In this document: one piece after another, positions 1,495-64,000 of the stretch
Position numbering within the stretch: position 1 is the stretch's first letter
Layout of the letters: each line of letters starts with the position of its first letter
Source: a virus
IMG/VR virus record: IMGVR_UViG_3300046804_005087
Coordinates: 1-64,000 of that record
Direction: 5' to 3' (one strand)
Length of the DNA: 64,000 nt
Program-made: the position numbers and the translations under genes
The notes under the pieces: generated by a model
Database searches by the model: none
What the model saw: only the letters and a program-made list of their open reading frames with translations
What the model was told of the DNA's origin: nothing

Positions 1495-1537
1495 TGATTA
1501 CTATACCGATAATGTTGTTGCTTTTTCTATATTAATC

Positions 1538-2703: not shown

Positions 2704-2722
2704 GGCTTTTCCCTCCATACCA

Positions 2723-2867: not shown

Positions 2868-2899
2868 TGGGGTTATAGCAAACAACAGAGGTTTTTCAA

Positions 2900-6645: not shown

Positions 6646-6646
6646 G

Positions 6647-6686
6647 AATCCCCTCACTTTTTAGGGTGAAGGGATTGGGTTTTGTC
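6647..6686 (+). terminator. rho-independent terminator after terL
   Basis: Imperfect stem AATCCCCTCAC / GTGAAGGGATT followed by GGGTTTT. It separates terL from the convergent gene at 6692. Confidence 0.55.
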
Positions 6687-6691
6687 TGGTG

Positions 6692-7183
6692 TTAAGCAAA
6701 AAGTTGTGTCACTACTTGTTTTTTCGAGTAAAGATAAAATCCATTTTTAGATCCTCGCTTTAGATATTTTAGGTATGGATGACCAGACAGTTTAGGATTG
6801 CTTACAGCAGACGAATAAAATACGTTAACTAGCTGAGATTGAAAGTTGTGGGTCTTTGTCATCCACTCAATTTCGGGAATTCGCTTCATCCAATTGGTAA
6901 AGTCAATTGGACGAAATTCTTTGTTTCCGATAAATTCAAAGAACTTCCGAAAAAAGTCTTTTTCATCTAACTTTGAAACGATGTCAAGATAACTCATACT
7001 TTTTGCATCATCGTTATATGAATAGCTTTCCCAGCAATCTGTGATGTTGATTGGCGTTTCGGCAATGTTAGACTCCTTTGCTTTTAACTCATTGATAACA
7101 TCTTGTAATGCTTCAATGTCTTTGTGGTTTACAGCATCAGCAGCAGCATTCCATAAAGCGTTGATTACGTAATTGTTAGCCAC
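6692..7183 (-). CDS. hypothetical protein
   Basis: 163 aa, soluble, no recognisable domain; rich in aromatic residues in the C-terminal half. It follows the HTH gene on the same strand with a 27-bp gap, so it is probably cotranscribed with the helicase-HTH unit. Confidence 0.6.
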   Translation of the reverse strand: MANNYVINALWNAAADAVNHKDIEALQDVINELKAKESNIAETPINITDCWESYSYNDDAKSMSYLDIVSKLDEKDFFRKFFEFIGNKEFRPIDFTNWMKRIPEIEWMTKTHNFQSQLVNVFYSSAVSNPKLSGHPYLKYLKRGSKNGFYLYSKKQVVTQLFA

Positions 7184-7210
7184 GGTAGTTTCCTTTGTTG
7201 TTTGCGTTAA

Positions 7211-8089: not shown

Positions 8090-10061
8090 TGATGTTTTCC
8101 TCATAATATTTTCGTGCGGATTCAATCCATTTGACTCGCGTTGCTAACGTAGCCTGAGATAGTGATTGGATGCCAATCTTGCGATTAATAACTTGACTTA
8201 CCACTCGATAGCCTTCATCGTCTTTTAAGTCTCGGTAAGCGTCTCCTAGTGGCGATTTAATAGAAGACCATCGAATGAGATTTGTTAGTCGCTTAATTTC
8301 TGCTTTTGCTTCTGCAATTTGGGCATCATAATCGATATTGATAGATGGTTCCTTGGGTGATTCATTACGACGTATTTCGCTAATTTCATCGGCATATTTA
8401 TCTTTCAAGACACGGATTCGCTCAATTACTGCTTTTTGTTGTGATTCCGAATTAGAACCGAGTACAGCGTCAATCCACTGACGGAACGCTGTTTGACCGC
8501 AAAATTCGGCAATTACGGATGGGCAATCTTGTAAATATTTAATAGCTTCCTGAACATCTGAAGGAATTAAACAGCTATTTACAACTTCAACGTATCCATC
8601 AGTTTCTGTCATGTAAGGCATAACGGGGCGATCCGTATCTACCAATGGATTGTCTTTGATGTTGTCTATGTTGTCATTGCCGGATTCATTGACTACCATC
8701 TTGATTTGTTTTTTCAAGTTAGCAGAAAGGTAAACAAAAGTAGGCTCAGCCGGAGCTACAATGTACCCTGATTTTGTCATGGTAGGAAAACCATCGTCAT
8801 AATAAGAAAAATCAATGCGCCGTCCTGATTGGTCATAAAGTTTGGGAATACGACGGGCGGCGCGAAAGATAACTTGAATGATATAAAGCATGGTAGATAT
8901 TGCGCTTAAATATCCCACTACTTTGATGGCAGGAATATCTACCCCTTCAGAAATCATACCAACAGAAACAATGGCATCTGGAACCTTTGGATTTGGCTTT
9001 TGCAATTCGTCTTGGATATGCTCAATTTTTTTGCTTGCTTTTGTGTCAATTTCATCAGTTCCAGAATGAATCACCTGCACAGTCCAAGCATATTTATCTC
9101 GTAGGTATTTGCCGATGTTATCAGCTTCGCGCTTGTTTCGGGCAACAACTAAGGCGATCACATGGGGACAATGCCATTGACGAGCTTGATCTAAGCGTTC
9201 TCGCACACGTTCCAATACCTTAATTGCAGTTTCATTTCGATAAACGTTTTCACATCCTACATGCTTGCCTAGGTCATTATTTTGTTGTGGGATAACCCGA
9301 CTGCATTCTTCCCAGTCTTCATCGGTTAATGGAGGATTATATTCAGATACCACCTGTTTACTGTCTCCCATCCCCACATAGGCGCGGGAATGGATTAAGT
9401 CAAAATGCAATGGAACTGTCCCACGAGTAGGTGATTTTAAATCACTTGCGTAATTGTAAGAATAATCAGGAACTACAATGCCATTTTGGTAGTAATTGTT
9501 ATTTTGCAGTAAAGCAATATAACCATCAGTACGCCACGGAGTACCTGATAGCATCAAAATGTTGTAAGAAATACTGGCGATAGATTCTAACGCATTCCCC
9601 CATTCCTTATCCCGTTCTGCGTGATGATACTCATCACAGATTAAAAGGATTCGAGAATTTGCAGGAATATTGTCTAATGAACGTTTTGCCCCAGCATAGG
9701 TGACAACACGAAAAACAACATCTTCTGTAAAGTTGTCAGATTCACCTGTGACGACAAATCCCAGGCTTTTAGCGGTTTTTACCCATCCTTTTTTAATAGA
9801 TACGCTAGGAACTAAGCAAATAACTACCGTATCAAGGTCACTACCTGATGTGTATTGAGCGGCGGCAAACAAACAACCAAGCATAGTTTTGCCGCCACCT
9901 GGGCACACTTCCGCTACAAATACGCGAGAGTCTTTATCTTTTTGGCGCTTATCTCGCAGTGACTTTAAAACCTCTTTTTGCCAGATACGTAAATCAATAT
10001 TAGATGCTCGCTTTTCCACTTCTCGCTTGAAGTGATTGTCAATCATTGGGATCGAATACAT
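8082..10061 (-). CDS. SF2 DEAD/DEAH-box helicase
   Basis: 659 aa. Motifs in order: I (VCPGGGKTM, about 55), II as DEYH (LLICDEYHHAE, about 145), III-like SGTPWR, a C-terminal RecA-like lobe with SVGMISEGVDIP, and motif VI IQVIFRAARR. A tail of about 200 residues is charged. It is an ATP-dependent nucleic-acid translocase, perhaps for replication or recombination. Its start overlaps the HNH gene and its end overlaps the HTH gene, indicating one operon. Confidence 0.88.
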   Translation of the reverse strand: MYSIPMIDNHFKREVEKRASNIDLRIWQKEVLKSLRDKRQKDKDSRVFVAEVCPGGGKTMLGCLFAAAQYTSGSDLDTVVICLVPSVSIKKGWVKTAKSLGFVVTGESDNFTEDVVFRVVTYAGAKRSLDNIPANSRILLICDEYHHAERDKEWGNALESIASISYNILMLSGTPWRTDGYIALLQNNNYYQNGIVVPDYSYNYASDLKSPTRGTVPLHFDLIHSRAYVGMGDSKQVVSEYNPPLTDEDWEECSRVIPQQNNDLGKHVGCENVYRNETAIKVLERVRERLDQARQWHCPHVIALVVARNKREADNIGKYLRDKYAWTVQVIHSGTDEIDTKASKKIEHIQDELQKPNPKVPDAIVSVGMISEGVDIPAIKVVGYLSAISTMLYIIQVIFRAARRIPKLYDQSGRRIDFSYYDDGFPTMTKSGYIVAPAEPTFVYLSANLKKQIKMVVNESGNDNIDNIKDNPLVDTDRPVMPYMTETDGYVEVVNSCLIPSDVQEAIKYLQDCPSVIAEFCGQTAFRQWIDAVLGSNSESQQKAVIERIRVLKDKYADEISEIRRNESPKEPSINIDYDAQIAEAKAEIKRLTNLIRWSSIKSPLGDAYRDLKDDEGYRVVSQVINRKIGIQSLSQATLATRVKWIESARKYYEENING

Positions 10062-10221
10062 AATTAGATTTCCTTAAATTACATTCGGGACAGCTTGGAA
10101 CTCCATTGTGTAGCGTAGTAGTTCCGCCCTTTGAATAAGGAATCACGTGGTCTATATGGCAAGTAGCGTCAACTTTTTTGCCGCAATAAGCACAGCGCCA
10201 TTGGTGCTTGATTAACAGCAT
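10039..10221 (-). CDS. small HNH endonuclease
   Basis: 60 aa from ATG 10221. The frame is open further upstream to 10308, but that Met coincides with the predicted transcription start. The C4-type HNH motif is complete: WRCAYCGKK, CHIDHVIPYSKGGTT, NGVPSCPECNLRKSN. Being free-standing and very small, it could be a nicking homing-type enzyme or a packaging-associated nuclease. It overlaps the helicase start by 23 nt. Confidence 0.8.
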   Translation of the reverse strand: MLLIKHQWRCAYCGKKVDATCHIDHVIPYSKGGTTTLHNGVPSCPECNLRKSNYVFDPND

Positions 10222-10313
10222 AGTTTTTTCAGACTTACTAAAACAACGTCTCAACCTAGAGAGCGGAAAAATTTCCGACTGACAAAGTGTCCTTCTGCAT
10301 AAGCACATAAGCT

Positions 10314-10348
10314 ATATTAACAACGCTCCAAATAAAATGACAACCAAT
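10314..10348 (-). promoter_or_regulatory. sigma-70-type promoter for the HNH-helicase operon
   Basis: On the minus strand, TTGTCA, an 18-bp spacer and TAATAT at 10314-10319. Transcription would start near 10307, so the HNH start at 10221 has a leader of about 85 nt. Confidence 0.6.
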
Positions 10349-10386
10349 AATGTCAGATATTTGCAGCCAATTTCAGTAAGCTTCAA

Positions 10387-10605
10387 TCATTTGCCATCCC
10401 TGAGCCGCTGATAAAATTTGCCTTTGCGGTCATGGGAGAAAGTGGAGGGGAACCGTAGGTAAAGGGCGATCGCCTCCCTAATCAATTCCGACCGACTCAT
10501 ATCCTTTTGCCAACATCGCTCATTCAATGCTTGGATAATGCCATCGTCTAGGGACACTGAAACTGGTTTTTTGGGATGGTCGGGCGTTAGTTTGGCTCTA
10601 GGCAT
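10387..10605 (-). CDS. ribbon-helix-helix (CopG/Arc-type) regulator
   Basis: 72 aa. The beta strand KPVSVSLDD is followed by two helices containing DMSRSELIREAIALYL, the standard RHH pattern. These dimers bind palindromic operators, so this is a plausible ligand for the repeated inverted repeats in the divergent modules; that link is inference. It lies alone between a terminator and the HNH operon. Confidence 0.85.
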   Translation of the reverse strand: MPRAKLTPDHPKKPVSVSLDDGIIQALNERCWQKDMSRSELIREAIALYLRFPSTFSHDRKGKFYQRLRDGK

Positions 10606-10653
10606 AGGACGGGTGATTGATTGGGCTACAGATATTTTATTAATCTATGCCAA

Positions 10654-10676
10654 CAAAAAAGACCCCGGAGGGTCTA
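10654..10676 (-). terminator. rho-independent terminator
   Basis: On the minus strand AGACCC-TCCG-GGGTCT followed by six T. It terminates the ASCH-like gene (10705) just before the RHH gene. Confidence 0.85.
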
Positions 10677-10704
10677 GTTTCGTGCTCACCATTATGCGTT
10701 ACGG

Positions 10705-11343
10705 CTATTTTAACAACTTAAACTCAAGTACCCAAACCCAGGGGTTAGACGCCCAAGGATGTTTTTTGTTGTCACTGTCCCATAGATTTTGAAAAGCAGT
10801 ACGCAATTCATGTCGGGGGTAGTCTAATCCTGGGCAAAAACTTTCCAGCCCTTCGGCCATCGCATCCTTTTCACTAATATCATTCAACCGTTCAACCCAT
10901 ACATCAGTAATCTCTAAAGTTATGCGAGATGCTGCGCGGGGCATGTGGATTGAAGGTTTCCATTTAACGGGTTTTCCCGTCCGTCCATCAATGCCAGCAA
11001 TATAAACGTTAGCTTCAGGATAGAAAGTTTCGGTTTTATACTTAATATTGCCATCCGATAAGATAGCAAATGTTTCCCGCACCCATAATCGATCATCAAC
11101 TTCTCCAAATGGGCATTTAATTTGTCGGCAATATTTCTTGTGAGGTTCACCTGGCACATGGGTTAGTGTTTCAAAATCCCGTGTTTCTGGATTGATTCGC
11201 TCAATTGTTTTAAAAACAACCGACTCACCTTTTTTGCTAACCATATCCGGCTGTGGCTTAACAACCCGCCGTGACTGTGTTTTACGCCCGTCAAGGATGG
11301 CGCGCACCATCTCGCCGCTAAATAAAATTGGTTTTTCTTTCAT
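10705..11343 (-). CDS. phage ASCH-like protein
   Basis: 212 aa from ATG 11343, chosen because GAGG is 5-8 nt upstream and the longer frame would start inside the promoter -10 box. The N-terminus (MKEKPILFSGEMVRAILDGRKTQSRRV) and the WVRETF, MPRAASRITLEIT and NPWVWVLEFK segments match the widespread phage family annotated as ASCH-domain or morphogenetic proteins. ASCH/PUA-like folds bind RNA or modified nucleotides. It is driven by the host-type promoter of module copy 2, so early expression is likely. Confidence 0.75.
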   Translation of the reverse strand: MKEKPILFSGEMVRAILDGRKTQSRRVVKPQPDMVSKKGESVVFKTIERINPETRDFETLTHVPGEPHKKYCRQIKCPFGEVDDRLWVRETFAILSDGNIKYKTETFYPEANVYIAGIDGRTGKPVKWKPSIHMPRAASRITLEITDVWVERLNDISEKDAMAEGLESFCPGLDYPRHELRTAFQNLWDSDNKKHPWASNPWVWVLEFKLLK

Positions 11344-11374
11344 ACCTACCTCAAATGTTTGCTCGATTTCTTCC

Positions 11375-11519
11375 ATTCTACACAATCAACTGCCTTACTG
11401 TCAAAACGCCATTTTAGCCAGAATCCCTAAAACTCTGAAAGCCTTACCCTGTCTAGATTACAAGGTGTTTCACCCTCTTAAGGATATTATAGGGGGTGAA
11501 ACAGTGGGATTTAGGATGG
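11375..11519. promoter_or_regulatory. divergent regulatory module, copy 2
   Basis: Minus-strand TTGACA (11399-11404), 18 bp, TAGAAT (11375-11380) drive the ASCH-like gene. Inverted repeat arms are GTTTCACCCTC (11467-11477) and GGGGTGAAAC (11493-11502). TTAGGATGG lies at 11511-11519, facing PhoH. The length between outer boundaries is again 128 bp. Confidence 0.85.
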
Positions 11520-11547
11520 TGATATAGGACTCTTACGGGAATAACTT

Positions 11548-12312
11548 ATGGGACGCCAACGCCAACGTCGAGTTGATACTGCTAGCTGGGATGACGTTGA
11601 GTCGTCCTATTTTTTTGACAACGTAGTGCCACTAGTCCCCAACCGCAAAACTTTCAAGCCTCTAACCCCTAATCACCATCGGTTAATCCACCATATCCGC
11701 AATAGTCCGATCACGATAATCAATGGGCCCGCCGGTAGTCTCAAAACGTTTCTGAGCTTGCAGACCCTGATACAGCTAATCGACGATGGCACTTATGACA
11801 AAATTGTGTATATCCGTCAGCGTATTCAACGCCCCCATGAGCCAGAATTGGGCTCTTTACCGGGCGATAAGAGTGAGAAGCTACACAAACTACTTGCGCC
11901 GATTTTGGATAACCTGGAGGCGATTCTAAGTCCCTATGCAGTTGACGAATTCATCAAAACTAAAGTTGAATGTTCTGATATTGAATCGTTGCGGGGGCGA
12001 TCACCGTTACGGTCTTGCCTATTCTGTGATGAGGCGCAAAACTGTGATTTAACAGCGCTAGAGACTATCATGACCCGTCGCACTGAATGTTCTAAATTAG
12101 TACTGGCTGGGGATTTTAAAGGGCAACGGGATATTTTAGACCGGGAATTTGATGCTTTTGAGTTGGTTTGTAATGAATTTGAAGGCAAGTTTCCAATCAT
12201 CCATCTAACAAAAAATGACATCCTACGGTCTGAGACTAACAAGGATGTCATCACGGGTTTTGAACGAATTAAAGAACGATTACAACTTATTGGTGTTTGT
12301 CCCCCTGCATAA
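11548..12312 (+). CDS. PhoH-family ATPase
   Basis: 254 aa. Walker A is GPAGSLKTF (about residue 61; the usual form is GPAGTGKT, so Gly before Lys is replaced by Leu). Walker B and its signature are FCDEAQNC (about 160), followed by AGDFKGQRD. PhoH proteins are frequent in cyanophages; their role is uncertain (RNA metabolism or phosphate-stress linked). It is preceded by the inverted-repeat side of module copy 2. Confidence 0.88.
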   Translation: MGRQRQRRVDTASWDDVESSYFFDNVVPLVPNRKTFKPLTPNHHRLIHHIRNSPITIINGPAGSLKTFLSLQTLIQLIDDGTYDKIVYIRQRIQRPHEPELGSLPGDKSEKLHKLLAPILDNLEAILSPYAVDEFIKTKVECSDIESLRGRSPLRSCLFCDEAQNCDLTALETIMTRRTECSKLVLAGDFKGQRDILDREFDAFELVCNEFEGKFPIIHLTKNDILRSETNKDVITGFERIKERLQLIGVCPPA

Positions 12313-12469
12313 TTTTGTGGATATTAGCTTTAACCCGATTGCCTAACAAATCATAGGCATCGTTAACAATATCCTCGGCAAACTCAGAACGGATAGACTG
12401 CAACTCATCTTTAGTTTGAGCGTCAATCATGCGTTCAGCCGCATCTAAAACATAAGTAGTTCTGTTCAT
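12287..12469 (-). CDS. hypothetical small protein
   Basis: 60 aa, helical and acidic, no family recognised. It overlaps the 3' end of phoH by 26 nt. It has its own promoter related to the divergent module (12501-12530), which supports its being real. Confidence 0.6.
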   Translation of the reverse strand: MNRTTYVLDAAERMIDAQTKDELQSIRSEFAEDIVNDAYDLLGNRVKANIHKIMQGDKHQ

Positions 12470-12500
12470 ATCAAATTAATTGTGCTTGCTTAGTGCCCAC

Positions 12501-12530
12501 ATTGTACACACTCAACCATTTTATCGTCAA
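12501..12530 (-). promoter_or_regulatory. module-type sigma-70 promoter without the inverted repeat
   Basis: Minus-strand TTGACG, an 18-bp spacer ending in GGTTGAGTGTG, and TACAAT. The spacer shares GGTTGA-TGTG with the module promoters, so it is a partial seventh relative lacking the distal inverted repeat. Confidence 0.65.
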
Positions 12531-12560
12531 GCGATGTCGTGGGGTCAAGGTAAAATAGTT

Positions 12561-12579
12561 GGGTATGTTATAATGGCGA
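12561..12579 (+). promoter_or_regulatory. probable promoter for zinc-ribbon genes
   Basis: A TATAAT -10 box followed at once by a HIP1 octamer. The -35 region is weak. GAGGG lies just before the ATG at 12611. Confidence 0.45.
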
Positions 12580-12610
12580 TCGCAAACTAACAAAATAGAG
12601 GGATAGTGTA

Positions 12611-12871
12611 ATGCCAAGACCGCCAAATCCTGACAATCCGCCTTGCGAGTCGTGCGGGTCTAACCGGGTTTCCGTTCACCGACATCTTGACAGCGGCAAT
12701 ACTCAGTACCGCTGTAACGAGTGCAAGAAAACTTGGACACCCAATAAAAAACCTCATGCCAGGGCGGGTAAGGGGAAATTAAAATACATGGATAGACCGT
12801 TGTCTAATGCCGAACATCAACGGCTATGGCGGCGGAAACAAAAGTTGTTAAAAAAGTTGAAGCCCGACTAA
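12611..12871 (+). CDS. zinc-ribbon protein
   Basis: 86 aa. Four Cys in CESCGSN...RCNECKKTW form an IS1/InsA-type zinc ribbon at residues 13-42, followed by a basic tail. It is a small DNA-binding protein candidate. GAGGG lies upstream of the start. One base separates it from the next zinc-ribbon gene. Confidence 0.7.
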   Translation: MPRPPNPDNPPCESCGSNRVSVHRHLDSGNTQYRCNECKKTWTPNKKPHARAGKGKLKYMDRPLSNAEHQRLWRRKQKLLKKLKPD

Positions 12872-12872
12872 C

Positions 12873-13271
12873 ATGAATTGTCCCCACTGTGGAAGTCCTA
12901 ACACACTCAAAAAAGGCTATGATCGTTACTTTAGACAACGGTATCGCTGTAAAGAGTGTCATAAGGGATTTGGCGGTGGGGATAAACTAAAGCCGATTAA
13001 AACACTGCATTATCATGCGTTAGTTGATTTATGCCCGCCTGCTAAGCAATCAAAGTCCCCAACGTTCACAACGCTGTCTGACAAGGTGACTTGTAGGATT
13101 TGCCGCAAGCATTTAGACAATCGAGTAAATCCTGACGATTTAACCACTAACAAAAGTTTTAGCTTAACTCGGAAAGCGATTAAATTATTAGTGGCATCGT
13201 CAAAAGTTAAAGATGTTAGTCAGTCAGCGTTAGTCAATCAATTAATTTTGGAGCATTTAAGCAATAGCTAG
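12873..13271 (+). CDS. two-zinc-ribbon protein with helical C-terminus
   Basis: 132 aa. The first ribbon is CPHCGSPNTLKKG...RCKECHKGF; a second Cys pair is CRICRK near residue 75. The C-terminal 40 residues (RKAIKLLVASSKVKDVSQSA) look like a short helical DNA-binding or dimerisation region. Probably a regulator; the function is not established. The same ribbon type recurs in the frame-shifted domain at 41806-41925. Confidence 0.7.
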   Translation: MNCPHCGSPNTLKKGYDRYFRQRYRCKECHKGFGGGDKLKPIKTLHYHALVDLCPPAKQSKSPTFTTLSDKVTCRICRKHLDNRVNPDDLTTNKSFSLTRKAIKLLVASSKVKDVSQSALVNQLILEHLSNS

Positions 13272-41805: not shown

Positions 41806-41925
41806 TTACTTTTTGCGATTAAATTGTTTACCACAGTCACGACATAACCATTGCTGACGGTTGTATGGCGTTATGCCGTTTTTGACGGTGTTTAGGCTGT
41901 CGCAGTTTGGACAGACTTTTTTGGG
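41806..41925 (-). CDS. zinc-ribbon domain without a start codon (-1 frame extension)
   Basis: A 36-residue frame: VCPNCDSLNTVKNG...WLCRDCGKQF, CxxC-x19-CxxC, ending TAA at 41806-41808. In this frame a TGA lies only 6 codons upstream of the first Cys and there is no ATG, GTG or TTG between them. Directly at its beginning the 105-aa gene (41892) reads CCA AAA AAG, containing A AAA AAG. A -1 slip there fuses the ribbon to residue 98. The ribbon resembles those at 12611 and 12873. Confidence 0.65.
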   Translation of the reverse strand, partial: PKKVCPNCDSLNTVKNGITPYNRQQWLCRDCGKQFNRKK

Positions 41926-42209
41926 AACTCAATAGGGTACATGACTTTTTCCCAAAACTCCATACGTGCTGGGCTTTGATCCTGGGATTCAATCAACATG
42001 AGTACGTTAAATAAGCCCGTGCAATCTGACAGGGAGTTAAAAACAAAATCTTTACCTGCCCGAATCCAGTGGGCTTCCCCTTCGGTTAAGTATGTTGCCC
42101 ACGATTTTAGGGCTAAGGATGCATGAGGGTGGCTGGTTTCTACAGTGAAATGAAAGTGTTCGATTTCATTGTTTATTTTTGCCATGATGCCAAATTTGAT
42201 GATTCCCAT
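41892..42209 (-). CDS. hypothetical protein, 105 aa, with probable frameshift extension
   Basis: The unshifted product is 105 aa, ending KSVQTATA. ATG 42209 is preferred because its leader (AAACCAACCAC) matches those of the next two genes; ATG 42185 is possible. The N-terminal half (HFHFTVETSHPHASLALKSW) is not recognised. Ribosomes slipping at 41916-41922 would make a 134-aa form ending in a zinc ribbon, so the gene may produce two proteins. Confidence 0.65.
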   Translation of the reverse strand: MGIIKFGIMAKINNEIEHFHFTVETSHPHASLALKSWATYLTEGEAHWIRAGKDFVFNSLSDCTGLFNVLMLIESQDQSPARMEFWEKVMYPIEFPKKSVQTATA

Positions 42210-42272
42210 AGTTTTTTCTGTGGTTGGTTTGATTGTGCCCCTACTTAGCGAGAGAGGCGATCGCCAAATTAA

Positions 42273-42419
42273 TTATTCAAGATCATCTAAAAACTTCAAG
42301 ACATTTTCAATTAGTGATGCCAATTTGTCGCTTTCATTGTGGTTAAGATTTTCAATTTTACCGGCATTAAGTTGGTCTTGAATGCCGTCTAACAATTCGT
42401 AAAGTTCGGATGCGGTCAT
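42273..42419 (-). CDS. small acidic protein (48 aa)
   Basis: ATG 42419 to TAA 42273: MTASELYELLDGIQDQLNAG..., helical and acidic. The leader, including AAGGAT before the ATG, is identical over 26 nt to that of the 42486 gene. Confidence 0.6.
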   Translation of the reverse strand: MTASELYELLDGIQDQLNAGKIENLNHNESDKLASLIENVLKFLDDLE

Positions 42420-42448
42420 GGTAGTTATCCTTTAGTGGTTGGTTTACG
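42420..42448 (-). repeat. duplicated leader, copy 1
   Basis: 26-29 nt repeated before the ATGs at 42419 and 42686; includes the ribosome site AAAGGAT. Followed downstream by a repeated GCTTAGCGAGAG-GGCGATCGCC unit containing HIP1. Confidence 0.65.
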
Positions 42449-42485: not shown

Positions 42486-42686
42486 TTATTCAATGTTAGA
42501 TTCTACATACTGAGTAATCAGCTCAGCTAAATTGTCGGGAGCTGGAGTGCCGTTATCATCCGACTCCCACCATTTTTCAGTCATTAATTGATTGACTGCT
42601 TTTTCTACGTCACCATCAAACGGCTTTACAAATTCAGCGGTGGTGATTTGTCCAACAAATAGCTCGTATGCAGTGAAAGCGTCCAT
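42486..42686 (-). CDS. small acidic protein (66 aa)
   Basis: MDAFTAYELFVGQITTAEFVKP..., acidic, helical. It has the same leader as the gene at 42273, so the two probably arose or are regulated together. No domain recognised. Confidence 0.6.
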   Translation of the reverse strand: MDAFTAYELFVGQITTAEFVKPFDGDVEKAVNQLMTEKWWESDDNGTPAPDNLAELITQYVESNIE

Positions 42687-42713
42687 GGTAGTTATCCTTT
42701 AGTGGTTGGTTTG
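42687..42713 (-). repeat. duplicated leader, copy 2, followed by GCTAAGCAAA
   Basis: Same sequence as 42420-42448. The GCTAAGCAAA word lies at 42710-42719 on the minus strand. Confidence 0.6.
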
Positions 42714-54879: not shown

Positions 54880-55220
54880 TGACTGGTATCTACAAAACCC
54901 GTGCTAATTATCAAAATAAAACTGTTGACTATCAATCTTTGATTAGCGCTGAATGCGACAAGGTTAAGGATATGTTGCTAGAAAAAAACCGTAAATACGG
55001 CAATAGTGCTTTAGACCCTAAACGGATATTTTCTAGCGCCGATCCTATTGAACAAATTAACGTCAGAATTGACGACAAACTAAGCCGCATCGCTTCTAAT
55101 CAATCTGACGACACAGAAGACGCTGAGCTTGATTTGATTGGTTATCTAATTCTTAAACGGGTCGCTAAACAACGAAATAACGAATTGCAGAACTTGTTTG
55201 GAGCAAACCATGATACCTAA
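54879..55220 (+). CDS. DUF1599/Nmad1-like protein (nucleotide-modification associated)
   Basis: 113 aa. Family core: LLEKNRKYGNSALDPKRIFSSADPIEQINVRIDDKLSRI...DDTEDAELDLIGYLIL, matching the Nucleotide modification associated domain 1 (DUF1599). These are found with base-hypermodification or dNTP-metabolism genes; here dcd and thyX. Reaction not established. Confidence 0.82.
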   Translation: MTGIYKTRANYQNKTVDYQSLISAECDKVKDMLLEKNRKYGNSALDPKRIFSSADPIEQINVRIDDKLSRIASNQSDDTEDAELDLIGYLILKRVAKQRNNELQNLFGANHDT

Positions 55221-55413
55221 AGAATGCCAAGAATTAACATTAGAGCAAAGCTTAGAAATGCGTATGATTGCAGACAATGTAGCTAAAATGCCCGCTGATG
55301 AGCTACGCACTCATATTTTATGGTTGTCTAAAATGCTGATGATTAAAGGCAACATCTTAAAATATTTTATGAGCAAGGAATTAAAAGTTAATCTCAAAAG
55401 TGCTAAAAAATAA
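55210..55413 (+). CDS. nblA: NblA-like phycobilisome degradation protein
   Basis: 67 aa from ATG 55210 with GGAG 6 nt upstream. It fits NblA: ELTLEQSLEMRMIADNV, then ELRTHILWLSKMLMIKGNILKYFM, compared with the NblA pattern L-S-L-E-Q-x-F-x-L-R...L...M-x-V-x-x-N. NblA links phycobilisomes to Clp protease so that the antenna is degraded. A phage copy may redirect amino acids and light energy during infection. Known in some freshwater cyanophages. It lies in the dcd operon, so it is expressed with nucleotide genes. Confidence 0.82.
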   Translation: MIPKECQELTLEQSLEMRMIADNVAKMPADELRTHILWLSKMLMIKGNILKYFMSKELKVNLKSAKK

Positions 55414-56072
55414 TGGCTTATAGTCTATCGGATTTAGTTTACTCAGAACGTCAGCGGCGATACCTGTTTCCGTCCGGTAGGCTAGTGCCAGAATCGCAAG
55501 TTAATAAATACATCAAGTCGTTTCAGGCAGTCTATCTTAAGCGGGTTGTTGACGACACTAACGCTCTGGTTAACGGTAATTTAACCGCTAGGGAGTGGGA
55601 AGAAAAAACTGCGTTAAATATTAAAGATGTCCACGTTGCTTTAATGCGGTTTGGTCGGGGTGGAAAAGACAAAGCCTACGCGATGCAATACCTAGACGTT
55701 GCTAACGAATTAAGAACGAATCAGTACCCTGCATTCAGATTGTTAGTGCAAGATTTAAGGGATGGTAAATTGTCCCGTAAAATGCTCGATTATCGCCTCT
55801 CACGGTTTATTCAAAGTAGTCGGGTATCGTATGAAATGGGGCGGCGTTCCTATGCAATTTATGATGATAAAAATACCCATGCTTTGCGTAAATTAGACGC
55901 CCAAGCCAAACACTGTGAAGACTGCGTTAGATACGCTGCAATGGGCATTAGACCGATTGGACAATTACCAGTACCGGGGCAAGCGTGTAAGTGTGCCCAG
56001 GCTTGTAAATGCTCGATTTACTATGGTAGTGAGATGAGTTTAATTGAGTTGAAAAATGGATGGCTAGCCTAA
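55413..56072 (+). CDS. head morphogenesis / minor head protein
   Basis: 219 aa. Helical, with a C-terminal Cys-rich segment HCEDCVRYAAMGIRPIGQLPVPG then CKCAQACKCSIYY, the pattern at the end of SPP1-gp7-type minor head proteins. It would help early capsid assembly or DNA ejection. It starts on the last base of nblA (TAATG). Confidence 0.7.
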   Translation: MAYSLSDLVYSERQRRYLFPSGRLVPESQVNKYIKSFQAVYLKRVVDDTNALVNGNLTAREWEEKTALNIKDVHVALMRFGRGGKDKAYAMQYLDVANELRTNQYPAFRLLVQDLRDGKLSRKMLDYRLSRFIQSSRVSYEMGRRSYAIYDDKNTHALRKLDAQAKHCEDCVRYAAMGIRPIGQLPVPGQACKCAQACKCSIYYGSEMSLIELKNGWLA

Positions 56073-56557
56073 TTGCTACAACAATCGACAAAGTTCAAAC
56101 GATGACAGCAATTCCTGTCAATCATGATTCTGACGTTCAACCTTCGGAGTTGTCATGGGAGGCGTTAGGCGCTATAGTTGGCTTGTTAGTTCCTGTCTTG
56201 ACTGTATGCGTTTTATTTGGTAGTATTCAGGCTAATTTAAGCTTTGTTAAAGAGTCAATAGTAGAATTTAAAAATAGAGAAAAAGAAAAAGAAGAAAAGC
56301 ATAGCAAGACCGTCAATGACTTAAAAAATGAAATTCATTCTACAGAAAAATCCTTATTAGAAAAACTCGAAGAATACCAAGAAGAGACAGAAATTAATCA
56401 AAAAGAAAAACGTGAAGAGTTTAAAGAATATTTATTAATGCATTTAAAAGAATTAATATTACCTCTGCATCGGGAAATTGATCAATTAAAAATCCTTCAC
56501 CAGCGCCGGGACGAGACTTTAAACGACCTCAAGCGAAAAGTGAAGGACTTAGAGTAA
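56060..56557 (+). CDS. membrane protein with long coiled coil
   Basis: 165 aa: one transmembrane segment (ALGAIVGLLVPVLTVCVLFGSI, ~36-57), then ~105 residues of Lys/Glu-rich coiled coil. It may be a holin- or spanin-like protein or a membrane-anchored tail partner. Overlaps the head gene by 13 nt. Confidence 0.6.
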   Translation: MASLIATTIDKVQTMTAIPVNHDSDVQPSELSWEALGAIVGLLVPVLTVCVLFGSIQANLSFVKESIVEFKNREKEKEEKHSKTVNDLKNEIHSTEKSLLEKLEEYQEETEINQKEKREEFKEYLLMHLKELILPLHREIDQLKILHQRRDETLNDLKRKVKDLE

Positions 56558-56586
56558 GATTAAAATATAGAGTATTGACCTCTATG

Positions 56587-56596
56587 TTTGCTTAGC
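56587..56596 (-). repeat. GCTAAGCAAA word
   Basis: Exact minus-strand copy at the 3' end of the frameshifted gene; another in the 56.6-kb gap region. Confidence 0.45.
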
Positions 56597-56938
56597 TGCC
56601 GCCTTCGCTACGTTGGGCGGCTTTTTCTCGCTTGATAATCCCAATGACTTCATTGATTAGCTCAGAAGTAGGGTTTAAATCCATGTGGCGTATCGCCCGT
56701 TTAGCTGTTTCGGTTAAGCGCTGTTCTGCATAGAAGTCCCGGTGTTTTAGCGCGTCTTCAACGGTGTCCAAATGCCAGTTGCCCCAGCCATCGCCTTGCT
56801 GGTAGCCAGAATCACGGTAGAATTTTTTACCATTAGCAACTAACGTAACTTTGTTAACTTTTCGACTGTAGCGATTGTAAAATCTTGACCAATAATCAAC
56901 GCTACAGTATCGCCTTTTTGTAAATGTTCAAAGCTCAT
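56592..56938 (-). pseudogene. frameshifted small gene
   Basis: ATG 56938 reads 32 codons (MSFEHLQKGDTVALIIGQDFTIATVEKLTK, then stop at 56840). The -1 frame continues as VTLVANGKKFYRDSGY...KREKAAQRSEGGS to TAA 56592, with no usable start of its own. Adding one A to the run at 56850-56852 restores a single frame ...EKLTKVTLVANG. The first part resembles the KGDTV start of the 58194 gene. It may be a real deletion or a sequence error. Confidence 0.6.
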
Positions 56939-56955
56939 TGTAATTACCTCTATCG

Positions 56956-57201
56956 TTAAAATTCTAACTTGCTTAATTTGTGAATTTGCTTTTTTAGTGA
57001 AGCAACTTTTAGATCACGAATTTTGTTGGCTTGCTTCAATGCATCTTCTTTGTTAAAAAATGCCTGATTTCCAAAAAACAGCATCCATCCTTTAGGAAAA
57101 CTGTCATCGTAACAGATAATGGCTTTGTCGCTATAAACCTTCCCAGGATATTCAAGGATTCCACGGGTTAATGCGTATTTTGTGACATAAACTTTTTGCA
57201 T
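56956..57201 (-). CDS. small phage protein of unknown function
   Basis: 81 aa from ATG 57201. KVYVTKYALTRGI at the start and NKEDALKQANKIRDLKVASLKKQIHKL at the end fit a short protein seen in many phages, often near modification genes. Function unknown. Confidence 0.6.
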   Translation of the reverse strand: MQKVYVTKYALTRGILEYPGKVYSDKAIICYDDSFPKGWMLFFGNQAFFNKEDALKQANKIRDLKVASLKKQIHKLSKLEF

Positions 57202-57222
57202 CATGTTTGCCTTTAGTTTTGA

Positions 57223-58194
57223 TTAATTTAAAACCGCTTCGATGATTTTTTGCATCATGAGCGGGGGAACGGCATTACCGATCATTTTGGTGTCTAATTT
57301 TAGATCGCCACTAAATTGATACCAATCAGGAATAGTTTGCCAACGGGCTAAGCATTGAGTATTAGCTTCGTAGGGTTGACCATCAATAACAATTGTGGCT
57401 TGTTTAGGAGATACCCTTACTTTGCCTGACATCGCCTTGATCGTGAACATCGGCTGATGTGCAAAACGGATTGTGTTGTTTGGGATGCCGTCTTTTTTCC
57501 TGGATCCGCTTCGTTGAATGACAAAATCCCCCATCCATTTCAGAAGCGTTGTGTGAACGGCGCCAGCGCCCTTGTGGTAATTGATGATCGACTCTTTTTG
57601 CCAATTGGTTAATGTTGTTAGTTTGAGAGTGGGGATTAGATCGGCGATCGCCTCATACCAGTTAATAGGCTTTTGGTTTTTCCATTCAATATTATACAGT
57701 CCTTGTATTTTTCCCCAATGCTTTGAGGCGACTAAAAATAATCGTTTACGTGATTGTGGTACGCCATAATCAGAGCAGTCAAGCAAGGACTGTCCAACAT
57801 AATAATCATTGTTTTTTAAGCAACGTTTAATGTTGGCAAGCGATTTGAAACTGGCATATCCTGCCACATTTTCCAGGCTAAAATAATCAGGTTTTAGCGT
57901 TTCAATCGCCCGACAAATAGCATTAGCCAATTCAATGTCTTCTGAGGTTTCTTTACCATTCTTAGCCCGTGATGCGTTGATACATGGCGGGGAAGCATGG
58001 AGCCAGTCGGGGCTATTAAGAGTTTGCCAATACAATGACTTAACATCAATCGTGTAAGTGTGATGTTCAAAATTATTGCAGGCAATCTCAGCAATATTAT
58101 CGTCAATCTCAACGCCCCAGATGGGTGTTAACCCTGCTTGCATAGCGCCTATATCCGCGCCGCCCATGCCTGTAAAAAGACTAGCAAATTTCAT
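57223..58194 (-). CDS. C5-cytosine DNA methyltransferase (second)
   Basis: 323 aa, complete. Motif I FASLFTGMGGADIGAMQAG, IV ASPPCINAS, VI SLENVAGY, VIII CSDYGVPQSRKRLFLVA, X KMIGNAVPPLMMQ. Catalytic Cys in SPPC. Full-length and distinct in sequence from the one at 1-968. It overlaps the next gene by one base. Target unknown. Confidence 0.93.
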   Translation of the reverse strand: MKFASLFTGMGGADIGAMQAGLTPIWGVEIDDNIAEIACNNFEHHTYTIDVKSLYWQTLNSPDWLHASPPCINASRAKNGKETSEDIELANAICRAIETLKPDYFSLENVAGYASFKSLANIKRCLKNNDYYVGQSLLDCSDYGVPQSRKRLFLVASKHWGKIQGLYNIEWKNQKPINWYEAIADLIPTLKLTTLTNWQKESIINYHKGAGAVHTTLLKWMGDFVIQRSGSRKKDGIPNNTIRFAHQPMFTIKAMSGKVRVSPKQATIVIDGQPYEANTQCLARWQTIPDWYQFSGDLKLDTKMIGNAVPPLMMQKIIEAVLN

Positions 58195-58541
58195 TAGTTA
58201 GATTCCTCAAATTGACTGATTAATTGTTTAATTTGTTTCAACTGTTCAAGGCTTAATTGACGAGAGCGAGAATGATAAAGGCTAAAATAGTCATCAAATT
58301 CATGAATTAGGTTAGTCCTTTGAAACTCATCCAAGTATTCTTGCTGAGTTTTGTAAATCTTGATTAATGGGGTATAGTCCCCAGCATCTTCAAGCATTGT
58401 TTCTTTATAGAATCGAGCGCGAAAGACATCTAAGTAAAAATACTTTCTGCCTATCCGTGTTACTGTGGCGAATCCTGTTTCTTTTTTATTCCATTTTTTT
58501 ACCCAAAAAACAGTGTCGCCAACTTTCAAATCAAACATCAC
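58194..58541 (-). CDS. hypothetical protein, SH3-like N-terminus
   Basis: 115 aa. The N-terminal part (KVGDTVFWVKKWNKKETGFATVTRIGRKYFYLD) has a small-barrel pattern and resembles the start of the frameshifted gene at 56592. Charged helical C-terminus. Its start overlaps the helicase end by 4 nt, so coupled. Confidence 0.6.
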   Translation of the reverse strand: MMFDLKVGDTVFWVKKWNKKETGFATVTRIGRKYFYLDVFRARFYKETMLEDAGDYTPLIKIYKTQQEYLDEFQRTNLIHEFDDYFSLYHSRSRQLSLEQLKQIKQLISQFEESN

Positions 58542-60079
58542 ATAACCTCTAGTATTTGTTGGGGTGGATAACAGCCAAATTCAGCTTTGAATTCTTTGTT
58601 TATCCAGCTATAATCTTTATCTTTTTTGATGGCGATCGCCTCAAGATATGCTAAGTAAGCCAACATAGATTTTTCGTTGCGTTCACCATTGAATACCGCG
58701 CCTAATGACCATTGAGCGCTGGGCCATTGGTTAGGGTGAAGTTCTTTGAATTTAGCCATAGCATAACCGGGGGCGATCCCTTTTTTGAATGCTTCTTTTT
58801 TCCATTCCCGATACAGTTGACCGGACAATGGGAAATCACATTCAACAGTTCGTAACTCAACTAAATTACTTTCCTGTTTAACTTTTTCTCTTAGTGGATA
58901 TTCATGTCCACATTCAGGACAGGTCATATCAAAAGTGCGGTGTAGGTGTCCACATTCAGGGCATTCTTTAACCGGCGGGTCGCCTTTTTCTCCCTGTTTA
59001 GCTTGAATTAAAGCAAAATCAGAGGGAGTTAAATCTTCAATAAAACCGTGGCGCTCAATGTTGCCAGCTTGGTCTAAAACTAAACACTCTGTTTTACCCT
59101 CAGATAACCGCAATCCCCGTCCTAATTGCTGAACGTAAATGGCTTTTGATTTGGTGGGACGGGCTAGGATGACACACTCAATATTAGGTACATCAAACCC
59201 TTCCGAGAGTGCATTACAACACGTTAGCACTGTCAATTTCCCGCTCTTTAAATTAGCATATAACGGTTCACGAATCTTAACGGGGCACATATCCCCACTG
59301 ACATAATTAGCCGCTACACCTGCATTTTCAAAGGCTTTTGCCATGTGCTTAGCATGGGCAACGTCAACGCAAAAGACGATAGTGGTTAACCCATTAGCTA
59401 ATCGTTGCCATTCACTGACCGCCTTGTTAACAATGCCCTCGTCATTACAAAGTACCGAAAGGTCATCTAAAGCAAATTCACCTGCAACGGTTTTGACTCC
59501 GTTCAAATCAGCGCCGCTTAGCCCAAAACATCGGGGTCTAACTAAAAACCCCATCTCTATTAATTGAGACGGTACAGGGGCTAAAACTAGAGCGTTAAAT
59601 AAATCTCCCATTTCTTCACGTTTAGACAATCGCCACGGGGTAGCAGTTAACCCAATGGTAATTTTATGATGGTTGTTTTGAATCATTGACCGTCCACTTT
59701 TACGCCATGCGGTCAGGTGTGCTTCATCATAAACCGCAACATCATCAACCAATGTCAGGGCAGATTTACGACGCTCTAAAGTTTGCATCGAAACTACTTG
59801 GCAGGGGTTGTCAGAATCACAATCCATCCCGCCAGAAACTGCACTGGATTTGATGCCGTATTTCTCAAATCGGGCTATAGTCTGACGGACTAAATTATCT
59901 CGATGAACCATGAATGCAACACGGCGATCGCGGCTAAGAATATCCGCAACCATTGACGCCGCAACTTCCGTTTTACCACTGCCCGTACTGGCGCAAAGTA
60001 GTATTTTATTTTGACCATCACGGATATGGTCGTAAACCTGACGCTTTACGTCTAATTGGTAATCTCTGAGTTTGAGCAT
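58538..60079 (-). CDS. SF2 helicase, RadD/UvsW-like, with zinc ribbon
   Basis: 513 aa from ATG 60079 (AGGAG 4 nt upstream). Motifs: I CASTGSGKTEV, II YDEAHLTA, III GLTATPWR, V EGFDVPNIECV and VI YVQQLGRGLRLSEGK. A zinc ribbon CPECGHLHRTFDMTCPECGH follows at ~385-405, and a C-terminal FKELHPNQWPSAQW segment. This is the RadD-type layout. It likely remodels forks or recombination intermediates with the SSB next door. Confidence 0.88.
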   Translation of the reverse strand: MLKLRDYQLDVKRQVYDHIRDGQNKILLCASTGSGKTEVAASMVADILSRDRRVAFMVHRDNLVRQTIARFEKYGIKSSAVSGGMDCDSDNPCQVVSMQTLERRKSALTLVDDVAVYDEAHLTAWRKSGRSMIQNNHHKITIGLTATPWRLSKREEMGDLFNALVLAPVPSQLIEMGFLVRPRCFGLSGADLNGVKTVAGEFALDDLSVLCNDEGIVNKAVSEWQRLANGLTTIVFCVDVAHAKHMAKAFENAGVAANYVSGDMCPVKIREPLYANLKSGKLTVLTCCNALSEGFDVPNIECVILARPTKSKAIYVQQLGRGLRLSEGKTECLVLDQAGNIERHGFIEDLTPSDFALIQAKQGEKGDPPVKECPECGHLHRTFDMTCPECGHEYPLREKVKQESNLVELRTVECDFPLSGQLYREWKKEAFKKGIAPGYAMAKFKELHPNQWPSAQWSLGAVFNGERNEKSMLAYLAYLEAIAIKKDKDYSWINKEFKAEFGCYPPQQILEVM

Positions 60080-60164
60080 ACTTCTCCTTTTGGCGTTTGC
60101 CACTGCCACGACTAGCCATGATGGGGACAGTAACAAACGCTTATTTAATTGCTAGATGTTTGAT

Positions 60165-60932
60165 TTAGAAGGGCACAGAATCAATCTCTGCGTCACTTAA
60201 AGCCGACTCAGCTTCGACTTTGGGTAATTCAGTTTTTTGCAACGGCATTGCATCCATCGCACGTTCCCATGCCGTTTGTAATTCCGCGAGGTCGGTTGAC
60301 GCTGGGATTTCTAATTCAATGCCGCGATTAGTAGCTTCCTTTGTAGCACTATCGAGATTGTCGATTAGCCGCTGTAATGCTTTATCGTGCCATTCGGGGT
60401 CGTTTGGATATGCTCCGTAAACATTGGCATCGAGATTAATTGAGGCACTAGAAAATGCTTCTTTGATAGATTTATCTAGCTTGGATTTGATAGCCATCAC
60501 AGAATATTCTGTGTCTTGTCCATTACCACTTTTCTTAATTTTGATGTCGCATTCACTAAGAGGACCGGCATCTGGATCAGCGTCATATGCAGCCAATGTT
60601 TTTTGAATAGTTGCCTGGGGGATTTCTAAAACCTTTAAATCCTGGTCAAGGTAAGACCACACCAAACAGAACCATACGTGTTTCCATTTTTCTTGCTTGC
60701 CAAATTTATCAAATTGACGACCACAAAACGGTAAGCGTACAGGTTCTTGCTGTTTTCCGTCTACAACGGCACGATACAGAATCGGCTTATTATCTGCCCC
60801 CCATGTACGGTAAATCAAACGCAGTCCTAAAATTCGGAATTTGTTATCTCCATTTTGGAGCTTCATGAAAATTGACTGACCATTACTTGAACCAACTTGC
60901 TCAATATCGTATCCGGTAGGTAGTAACCCCAT
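60165..60932 (-). CDS. ssDNA-binding protein (gp32-like) with acidic tail
   Basis: 255 aa from ATG 60932 (GGAGG 5 nt upstream). NKFRILGL at ~31-38 and WFCLVWSYLDQDLKVLEI are typical of phage ssDNA-binding core folds. The end is acidic, DAEIDSVPF, as in SSB tails that recruit partners. It coats ssDNA at the fork. First gene of the leftward helicase unit. Confidence 0.75.
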   Translation of the reverse strand: MGLLPTGYDIEQVGSSNGQSIFMKLQNGDNKFRILGLRLIYRTWGADNKPILYRAVVDGKQQEPVRLPFCGRQFDKFGKQEKWKHVWFCLVWSYLDQDLKVLEIPQATIQKTLAAYDADPDAGPLSECDIKIKKSGNGQDTEYSVMAIKSKLDKSIKEAFSSASINLDANVYGAYPNDPEWHDKALQRLIDNLDSATKEATNRGIELEIPASTDLAELQTAWERAMDAMPLQKTELPKVEAESALSDAEIDSVPF

Positions 60933-61021
60933 AAATGCCTCCACTAGGCTGATTAGGTATAAAGCTATATTAGCAAGCACACAACTAAAAGACAAGCATT
61001 TGATTGATGTGATTTCCGACT

Positions 61022-61149
61022 GTCAACCCTGTTATAAATATCTAAGAAGGGGTTAACACCATGTAACCTAATCAGGGTAAGGGTTTTAGAATTTTAGGGA
61101 TTTTAGTCAAAATGGGGCATTGACAGTAAGATAGTTAGCGCTGTAATAT
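61022..61149. promoter_or_regulatory. divergent regulatory module, copy 6 (variant repeat)
   Basis: + strand TTGACA (61120-61125), 18 bp, TAATAT (61144-61149) drives 61185. The inverted repeat is changed to GTCAACCC (61022-61029) and GGGTTAAC (61050-61057), still spanning 36 bp, and the whole is still 128 bp. The inner CAGGGTAAGGGTTTTAGA block is conserved. Confidence 0.8.
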
Positions 61150-61157
61150 GATTAACA

Positions 61158-61167
61158 GCTAAGCAAA
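61158..61167 (+). repeat. GCTAAGCAAA word
   Basis: Exact copy just after the module copy 6 promoter. Confidence 0.5.
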
Positions 61168-61184
61168 TGTATGGAGTGTCTACC

Positions 61185-61637
61185 GTGTTAAGCACACAAT
61201 TTGTAATCAAATCTAAGGTCAACGGCTTTCTATTAGCCGAGTTCTGGCTACAGTCTGAAACCCCCCTATCCGTCCAAGAGTGCCGCAATGCGGTTAAGTC
61301 TTTGGGATGGGAACCCAGTGATGTGCGATGGGACTGCCCAAAATGCGTAGAGTTAGATGAAAGCCACCCCGGCACGATGACCCTGATTGATGCCTTTATC
61401 CCTTTATCCCAAAAAGTACGCCAGCTAGATAATGGTGAGCGTCAATGGAACGCTACAGGATGGCATGAATATACATCCTTAGACGGTTGCATTACGGCGC
61501 TAAGCGCCCGTGCGATCGCCCTAGATTGGGCACTGTTTGACGGGTTTGATGAGGAATTCGCACGGCAAAACATCAAAGTTAACGTTCGATACGTTGACAA
61601 GATCGAGTATCCAGTTAGCGATAACGTGCCTTTTTAA
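61185..61637 (+). CDS. hypothetical protein with SSB-like C-terminal tail
   Basis: 150 aa from GTG 61185 (ATGGAG 8 nt upstream; ATG 61167 also in frame). It contains a Cys pair (WDCPKCVEL) and ends SDNVPF, like the DSVPF of the divergent SSB. The shared ending suggests a common docking partner. No other domain recognised. Confidence 0.6.
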   Translation: MLSTQFVIKSKVNGFLLAEFWLQSETPLSVQECRNAVKSLGWEPSDVRWDCPKCVELDESHPGTMTLIDAFIPLSQKVRQLDNGERQWNATGWHEYTSLDGCITALSARAIALDWALFDGFDEEFARQNIKVNVRYVDKIEYPVSDNVPF

Positions 61638-61652
61638 ATCAAACATTTATCG

Positions 61653-61677
61653 CCCTGGCAAGCGTCAGGGTAAAACT
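61653..61677 (+). promoter_or_regulatory. leader hairpin before 61678
   Basis: CCCTG-GCAAGCGT-CAGGG just before the ATG, similar in place to the hairpins at 25267 and 25515. Confidence 0.45.
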
Positions 61678-61809
61678 ATGTACCTGTCTAATCCCCATCC
61701 TGTCACCCGCATTAAACAGACCGCTAAATCTAGTTACTACCGAGCTTCTGTCAGGCTCGGTTTTAAATTAGTGGCGATCGCCCTAGCAAAAACATTAATC
61801 AAAGGCTAA
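61678..61809 (+). CDS. small basic protein (43 aa)
   Basis: ATG 61678: MYLSNPHPVTRIKQTAKSSYYRASVRLGFKLVAIALAKTLIKG, basic with a hydrophobic end. It lies between 61185 and the helicase fusion in the same direction. Confidence 0.5.
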   Translation: MYLSNPHPVTRIKQTAKSSYYRASVRLGFKLVAIALAKTLIKG

Positions 61810-61814
61810 GCAAA
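61805..61814 (+). repeat. GCTAAGCAAA word
   Basis: Exact copy 2 nt before the helicase-methyltransferase ATG (AAACCATG). Confidence 0.5.
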
Positions 61815-61816
61815 CC

Positions 61817-64000
61817 ATGAACTATCAAGATTTTTTGTCCAATAAGCTGTCTAAAGTTACGCCGTCTGGGTTTGATATTGCCCTTAATGACCTTCCTGAT
61901 TGTCTTTTTGATTATCAAAAATTTGTAGTGCAGTTAGCATTGCAAAAGGGTAAGTTTGCCATATTTGCCGGGACAGGTTTAGGAAAGTCTCTCATGCAAT
62001 TAGTTTGGGCGTTAGAAGTTAATCGTCACACTAACCGCCCCGTTCTGATTCTTGCTCCCTTAGCAGTAGCTAAACAAACGGCAGGGGATGAGTGTACAAA
62101 GTGGGGGATTAACGCCCAATACTGCGAGTCTCAAGCCGACGTAATCAATGGCATCAACATCACCAATTATGAGAAGTTAGGCAAGTTTAGTCCTGATACT
62201 TTTGCTGGTATTGTATTGGATGAAAGTTCAATCCTTAAGGGATTTAACGGCAAAATGCGGAGTCAATTAATTGAGGCTTTTGAATATACTCCTTATAAGT
62301 TGGCTTGCACTGCTACCCCTAGCCCTAATGACTACATTGAATTAGGGAACCATTGCGAGTTTTTAAACGTGATGAGCCGTGATGAGATGTTAGCGACGTT
62401 TTTTGTTCACGATGGCAAAGTGTCGTTAACTGATGAGATTTGGAAACTCAAAAATCACGGCAAAATTAAATTTTGGGAATGGCTTGCATCATGGTCTGTT
62501 ATGTTTCAGAAACCTAGTCATTTAGGTTTTAGTGATGATAATTACCAACTCCCTAAACTCATTGAGCATGAGCTAACAATTGAGTCTGGTATTGTACGGG
62601 AAGGTGAACTGTTCACCATGGAGGCACGGGGATTAATTGAGCAACGCCATGCTAAACGCTCAACTATTGACGACCGTGTTAAAGCTGCCGCCGATTTGAT
62701 TAATGCTAGTGATGAACAGTGGCTTGTCTGGTGCGATCTTAACGATGAATCCGCCGCCCTAGCCGCCGCTATTAACGATTGTGTTGAGGTTAAAGGGTCT
62801 GATAAAGACTCCCATAAAGAGAACGCCGCCATTGACTTTGCACATGGCAAAATCAAAGTCTTAGTTTCAAAAGCTTCTATTTTTGGATTTGGGCTAAACT
62901 TTCAATCTTGCCACAATATGCTATTTGTCGGGCTTTCTAATTCTTTTGAGTTAACCTATCAAGCCGTCCGGCGGTGCTACAGGTTTGGGCAAACTCAAGA
63001 TGTAAATGTCTATTATGTAGCCGTTGACATTGAGGGAGCCGTCCTTAAAAATATTCAGAAAAAACATCGTAAGTTTGAAGAAATGCAAGCTAACATTGCC
63101 AGTCATTTCTTATCTGCCTATCACGCCATCACTGCTAAAAAAGACTACGATCTTACTAAAGCCATGACTAGCCCTATTCTCGAAGTTAAAGACGGTTTAT
63201 GCCTTGACCAAAAACATGGGCAAAACTATTCTAGTTTCCAAGGTGATTGTGTTGAATTGATTAAAGCCGTCCCTGATGACAGTATCGGTTACTCTATTTT
63301 TAGCCCACCTTTTGCGAATCTTTTTACTTATTCCGATTCTCTTCACGATATGGGGAATGTTACCAGTGACGACCAATTTACGGAGCATTACAAATTCCTT
63401 TTGAGTGAACTTTATCGCGTTATGATGCCCGGTCGGCTGGTATCCGTTCACTGCCAAGATTTAATTGCCACTAAGACTAAAGACGGCTTTATTGGCATTA
63501 AAGACTTCTCTGGTTTAATGATTCAGTTAATGCAAGAATTAGGGTTTGTTTATCACAGTCGCGTCACTATCTGGAAAGATCCGGTTTGTCAAATGCAACG
63601 ACTCAAACCCATTGGTTTACTTCACAAACAAGTAGAAAAAGACTCAAGTTTAAGCCGTCAAGGATTACCTGATTACCTGGTAACATTCCGCAAGCCAGGA
63701 GAAAATACAGAGCCAATCGAAGGGCGTTTAGTTGAGTTTTACGGGGAAGATTTGCCTCCTATCAGCAATGATCCTAAATGGCATTCTATTAACGTGTGGC
63801 AGCGGTACGCTAGCCCTGTATGGATGGATATTGTCCAAAATGATACTTTAAACTTTCGTGAGGCTAAGGAAGATGATGATCATAAGCATATTTGTCCCTT
63901 ACAATTGACGGTTATCCGTCGGGCTTTGCAGCTATGGTCTAACCATGGCGATGTTGTTTTGAGTCCCTTTGCTGGTATTGGTTCGGAGGGTTATGTCAGC
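61817..64000 (+). CDS. SNF2-type helicase fused to a DNA methyltransferase (C-terminus cut)
   Basis: 728 codons to the window edge. Helicase part (~1-445): YQKFVVQLALQKGK, Walker A GTGLGKSLM, motif II VLDESSILKG, ACTATPSPNDY and motif VI YQAVRRCYRFGQTQDV. Methyltransferase part (~475-728): motif IV FSPPFANLFTYS comes before motif I VLSPFAGIGSEGY, the beta-class order of N4/N6 amino-methyltransferases. One protein may translocate DNA and methylate it, or act as a restriction-modification-like system. It runs off the edge. Confidence 0.88.
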   Translation, partial: MNYQDFLSNKLSKVTPSGFDIALNDLPDCLFDYQKFVVQLALQKGKFAIFAGTGLGKSLMQLVWALEVNRHTNRPVLILAPLAVAKQTAGDECTKWGINAQYCESQADVINGINITNYEKLGKFSPDTFAGIVLDESSILKGFNGKMRSQLIEAFEYTPYKLACTATPSPNDYIELGNHCEFLNVMSRDEMLATFFVHDGKVSLTDEIWKLKNHGKIKFWEWLASWSVMFQKPSHLGFSDDNYQLPKLIEHELTIESGIVREGELFTMEARGLIEQRHAKRSTIDDRVKAAADLINASDEQWLVWCDLNDESAALAAAINDCVEVKGSDKDSHKENAAIDFAHGKIKVLVSKASIFGFGLNFQSCHNMLFVGLSNSFELTYQAVRRCYRFGQTQDVNVYYVAVDIEGAVLKNIQKKHRKFEEMQANIASHFLSAYHAITAKKDYDLTKAMTSPILEVKDGLCLDQKHGQNYSSFQGDCVELIKAVPDDSIGYSIFSPPFANLFTYSDSLHDMGNVTSDDQFTEHYKFLLSELYRVMMPGRLVSVHCQDLIATKTKDGFIGIKDFSGLMIQLMQELGFVYHSRVTIWKDPVCQMQRLKPIGLLHKQVEKDSSLSRQGLPDYLVTFRKPGENTEPIEGRLVEFYGEDLPPISNDPKWHSINVWQRYASPVWMDIVQNDTLNFREAKEDDDHKHICPLQLTVIRRALQLWSNHGDVVLSPFAGIGSEGYVS

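Follow-up and report, generated by a model that had tools for sequence, protein, structure and literature searches.

The best-known phage frameshifts lie in structural and tail genes; in tail assembly chaperones of the lambda G/GT type, a −1 shift late in a small gene yields a minor, C-terminally extended form. In Escherichia coli dnaX, the shift on A_AAA_AAG shortens the product and is accompanied by an upstream Shine-Dalgarno sequence and a downstream hairpin. The InsA/InsB′ shift of IS1 uses another A-rich heptamer, A_AAA_AAC, and the zinc ribbon of InsA is N-terminal. One source (PMC4066793) ranks A_AAA_AAG, given stimulators, with the most efficient −1 motifs in E. coli and names IS1 as an example of frameshifting that has no stimulators flanking the site.

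The gene described here, at 42209-41806 on the minus strand of the 64-kb stretch of phage DNA that was analysed (the window), resembles each of these systems in part. It has the heptamer of dnaX, although the predicted shift extends the product and stimulators of the dnaX kind were not found. Like IS1, it combines an A-rich heptamer without an evident stimulator with a ribbon that fits the IS1/IS1595 zinc-binding model, but the ribbon lies 3′ of the slip site, as a tail, and the gene has neither a transposase catalytic domain nor a surrounding IS element. As in the G/GT genes, the candidate −1 shift comes close to the 3′ end of a small gene and would give a minor, C-terminally extended form; unlike them, the gene is located outside the tail region, in an array of small open reading frames (ORFs), and what is added is a zinc ribbon. 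No match to the lambda-type tail assembly chaperone family was obtained, and the neighbours are clamp-like and helicase-like ORFs. We consider it likely that programmed −1 ribosomal frameshifting yields two products of this gene, of 105 and 134 aa.

Reading frames, slip site and zinc ribbon

The 105-aa ORF (0 frame) runs on the minus strand from an ATG at 42209 to a TAA at 41892, with an alternative start (M9) at 42185, and its product ends in FPKKSVQTATA. Near its 3′ end, the codons CCA AAA AAG place A_AAA_AAG (41922-41916), with exactly six A, in the −1 slip phase. The −1 frame (41806-41928, stop included) contains no ATG, GTG or TTG and is closed upstream by a TGA (41929-41931) two codons 5′ of the heptamer; it begins TGA GTT CCC AAA AAA GTC TGT CCA AAC TGC and, from this TGA to the TAA at 41808-41806, reads VPKKVCPNCDSLNTVKNGITPYNRQQWLCRDCGKQFNRKK, which includes a CxxC-x19-CxxC ribbon. 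The initial annotation had described this heptamer and the start-less ribbon frame behind a TGA, and its coordinates, phase and cysteine spacing are all correct. Thus, an X_XXY_YYZ heptamer lies in 0-frame phase within the overlap of the two frames, and the downstream −1 ORF lacks its own start codon, as expected of −1 frameshifting. The fusion computed from the frames comprises 98 + 36 = 134 aa. The ORFs of the window contain 8 in-phase A_AAA_AAG sites in 19,035 codons (~4.2e-4 per codon), so that ~0.006 would be expected by chance in the ~13-codon overlap at one locus. One further in-phase heptamer, and no other, is followed by a long −1 extension; it lies at 56995-56989 and was judged ordinary because the ORF into which it leads has its own ATG.

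The ribbon scored 53.7 bits (E 2.2e-14) against NCBIfam NF050000, the IS1/IS1595 N-terminal zinc-binding domain, for which the cut-off is 28; at this E-value the match is not a chance one, and the four cysteines are kept. With the full-length IS1 family transposase model (NF033558), the score was only 31.1 bits against a cut-off of 100, and the alignment covered positions 1-34 of 199. No transposase catalytic domain was found 3′ of the ribbon; this position is occupied instead by an intrinsic-terminator-like hairpin, CCCGTCCATAGTGGCGGG-TTTTTT (41799-41776, minus strand), and the clamp-like ORF at 41744 comes after it. The DNA-binding role that the initial annotation had assigned to the ribbon is not supported; going by the family name, the ribbon-bearing form possibly binds DNA. 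For the upstream ORFs, no significant family match was found in Pfam, PHROGs or NCBIfam, and the only relatives of the 105-aa protein among viral contigs, GTDB genomes, named phages, plasmids and 339 cyanobacterial genomes came from the same phage. Structure models made without alignments had pLDDT values of 39 and 45 and were not taken into fold searches.

Conservation and selection in a diverged phage

An independent assembly of the same phage, IMGVR 3300043446_004515, matches the window at every one of 18,272 bases around the site, differs from it by 2 SNPs in 9,000 bases elsewhere (55001-64000) and has six A at the slip site. A related but diverged phage is represented by the 37.5-kb contig IMGVR 3300048597_000488 (L016), whose amino-acid identity to the window is 37% for the clamp-like, 55% for the ribonucleotide-reductase-like and 54% for the dCTP-deaminase-like protein, these names being our own reading of the sequences. 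Its site, GACATGGCAAAAAAGTCTGCCCGGACTGC, contains A_AAA_AAG in the same phase, also with six A, so that the heptamer proposed for checking in related phages was indeed present in one. The −1 frame of L016, KKVCPDCGGINTVKNGITKYGKQQWLCKDCGRQFNRKN, likewise has no start and a TGA two codons 5′ of the heptamer; its ribbon is 76% identical to that of the window and scored 57.9 bits against NF050000 (cut-off 28). Similarity between the two phages at the DNA level extends from the heptamer, through the ribbon, up to the terminator, which has a close match 3′ of the ribbon in L016. Another related phage (L004) lacks this gene between clamp and helicase.

The upstream ORF of L016 encodes 103 aa (91 aa from the likelier start) and ends in MAKKSARTAVA. 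A shuffle test gave borderline similarity at most between the upstream ORFs (local p 0.065, global p 0.015), so we do not call them unrelated; the choice is between homologues that have diverged greatly and different partners. For the same reason, the function of the fusion is without corroboration by an independently fused homologue. The conservation evidence comprises two diverged lineages with one ribbon locus each, and their heptamers are common by descent rather than independent draws; site and phase, together with selection on the downstream frame, are conserved in one diverged lineage, L016.

The ribbon cassettes of the window and L016 differ at 29 of 114 bases, with 7, 6 and 16 changes at the first, second and third codon positions, respectively. 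The NG86 method gave a dN of 0.18 and a dS of 1.56, and YN00 gave 0.22 and 0.72. When the same substitutions were placed at random under neutrality, a stop codon arose in 59% of placements, and retention of 28 of the 38 residues without a stop, as in the real pair, was reached in 0 of 20,000. These values, from one pair of sequences, indicate that the ribbon frame is under purifying selection as a protein between the two phages, which makes it very probable that the ribbon is translated. We also scanned IMG/VR for ribbons of the form CxxC...CxxC preceded by AAAAAAG and obtained 18 stretches. In 16 of these the ribbon was in frame with the sequence 5′ of it, where 15 had a start codon and one was cut by the contig end; a −1 shift was needed only in this phage (its second assembly) and in L016. 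The pattern was absent from 339 cyanobacterial genomes.

Stimulatory elements, which programmed −1 frameshifting does not strictly require, were sought on both sides of the heptamer. No internal Shine-Dalgarno sequence was present in the 25 nt 5′ of it in the window phage or in L016. The short stem CTGTC/GACAG (41897-41914, minus strand), to which the initial annotation had drawn attention, is present, and pairing also occurs at its columns in L016, but it is unconvincing as a stimulator. It starts only 1 nt 3′ of the heptamer, a 5-bp stem arises at those columns in 8-25% of random synonymous recodings, so that its preservation, once the codons are allowed for, is not significant, and an apparent compensatory pair proved to be a consequence of amino-acid changes. 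The role of the stem is therefore doubtful.

Proposed frameshifting and its alternatives

Only a −1 shift (or slippage) links the ribbon to a start, and −1 ribosomal frameshifting on A_AAA_AAG is the simplest such link. The majority of ribosomes would terminate at the TAA at 41892 after 105 codons, whereas in a fraction of them both tRNA-Lys would slip back one base at A_AAA_AAG; these ribosomes would translate another 36 codons and so append the zinc ribbon of IS1/IS1595 type, for a total of 134 aa, ahead of the shared terminator. We infer the slippage itself, its efficiency and both products. The interpretation as a programmed frameshift, already offered in the initial annotation, gains support from the conservation in L016 and from the selection acting on the ribbon frame.

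The same fusion could also arise through slippage of RNA polymerase on the A run or from phage variants with seven A, in which the tail would be phase-variable. Both phages have a homopolymer at the junction, and transcriptional and replication slippage at A runs is known (PMC3711429); however, the run of six A is shorter than the length (n > 7) that PMC3711429 quotes for transcriptional realignment, and the count is six, not seven, in both assemblies of the phage and in L016, and we regard this route as unlikely. We give slightly less weight to decay, in which a ribbon gene that was once in frame lost a single base, leaving a ribbon that no longer functions in either phage. One base in the homopolymer would restore the frame, and the upstream protein has no known function, but the ribbon amino acids have been conserved, free of stops, despite strongly diverged synonymous sites, and it is improbable that this homopolymer recently lost a base in both phages in parallel. 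The retention of both slip site and tail in a phage as diverged as L016 makes a dead gene, like a sequencing error, unlikely.

Independent translation of the ribbon, by internal initiation or stop-start coupling, has a precedent in that the same phage encodes small ribbon proteins with their own ATG (12611-12871 and 12873-13271). At the present locus, however, no ATG, GTG or TTG, and no ATT, ATC, ATA or CTG, lies 5′ of the first CxxC in either phage, and the only close ribbon relative, in L016, is itself start-less and in the −1 phase rather than a separate gene; translation without frameshifting is accordingly very improbable. An assembly artefact is the least credible explanation: every sequence is metagenome-derived, but two assemblies that are SNPs apart elsewhere and a diverged phage concur, which largely refutes it.

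If programmed −1 frameshifting does operate here, recoding would provide a small non-structural phage protein with a second form, possibly able to bind nucleic acid, by the addition of a transposase-type ribbon that is conserved in two diverged phages without evident stimulators and that would escape gene callers. Our guess is that the minor form, which would bear the ribbon and possibly bind DNA, is modulated or titrated by the major one.

The small-ORF array and other features of the window

In both phages, the frameshift gene comes last in an array of small ORFs with which AACCAACCAC is associated. The first member in the window encodes 66 aa (42486-42686, minus strand) and has AACCAACCAC as a leader at 42702-42711; the next encodes 48 aa (42273-42419, minus strand), with the leader at 42435-42444, and the copy of the frameshift gene (42220-42229, minus strand) lies 10 nt 5′ of its ATG. 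These are the 3 copies in the 64-kb window, against 0.13 expected, all just 5′ of array ORFs. The whole L016 record also has 3 copies, of which two (among 2406-2415, 2662-2671 and 2731-2740) precede ORF starts and one lies within a hairpin. Within the window and the L016 record, AACCAACCAC is thus confined to the small-ORF arrays, mostly just 5′ of start codons, a distribution that supports a shared ancestry of the arrays and points to a control site. The motif is likely a promoter, operator or leader element, and binding of the ribbon form to it is speculation. It is conceivable, although we propose it only tentatively, that heptamer, ribbon and terminator form a portable 'slip-and-ribbon' cassette carried on different small genes, by which a fixed minor fraction of each protein would receive a nucleic-acid-binding tail, and that the fusion may regulate its own AACCAACCAC-led array.

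The host is probably a cyanobacterium, judging from GCGATCGC-rich sequence and IS1 relatives. No tRNA genes were found in the window or in the examined stretches of two other phage records. A second frame-disrupted small gene is present at 56592-56938 (minus strand), where, around GAAAAG, MSFEHLQKGDTVALIIGQDFTIATVEK gives way to its −1-frame continuation VNKVTLVANGKKFYRDSGYQQG...; it may be a frameshift gene or a decayed gene, and it had no match among named phages. The two ribbon proteins with their own ATG are adjacent on the plus strand; the second (12873-13271) is also IS1-like and has a match in the related phage record G003 (L044), in an open frame of 156 aa. In the second assembly of the phage, stretches from both ends of the window (38229-64000 and 1-13189) are joined in a different order, which suggests a circular or circularly permuted genome.
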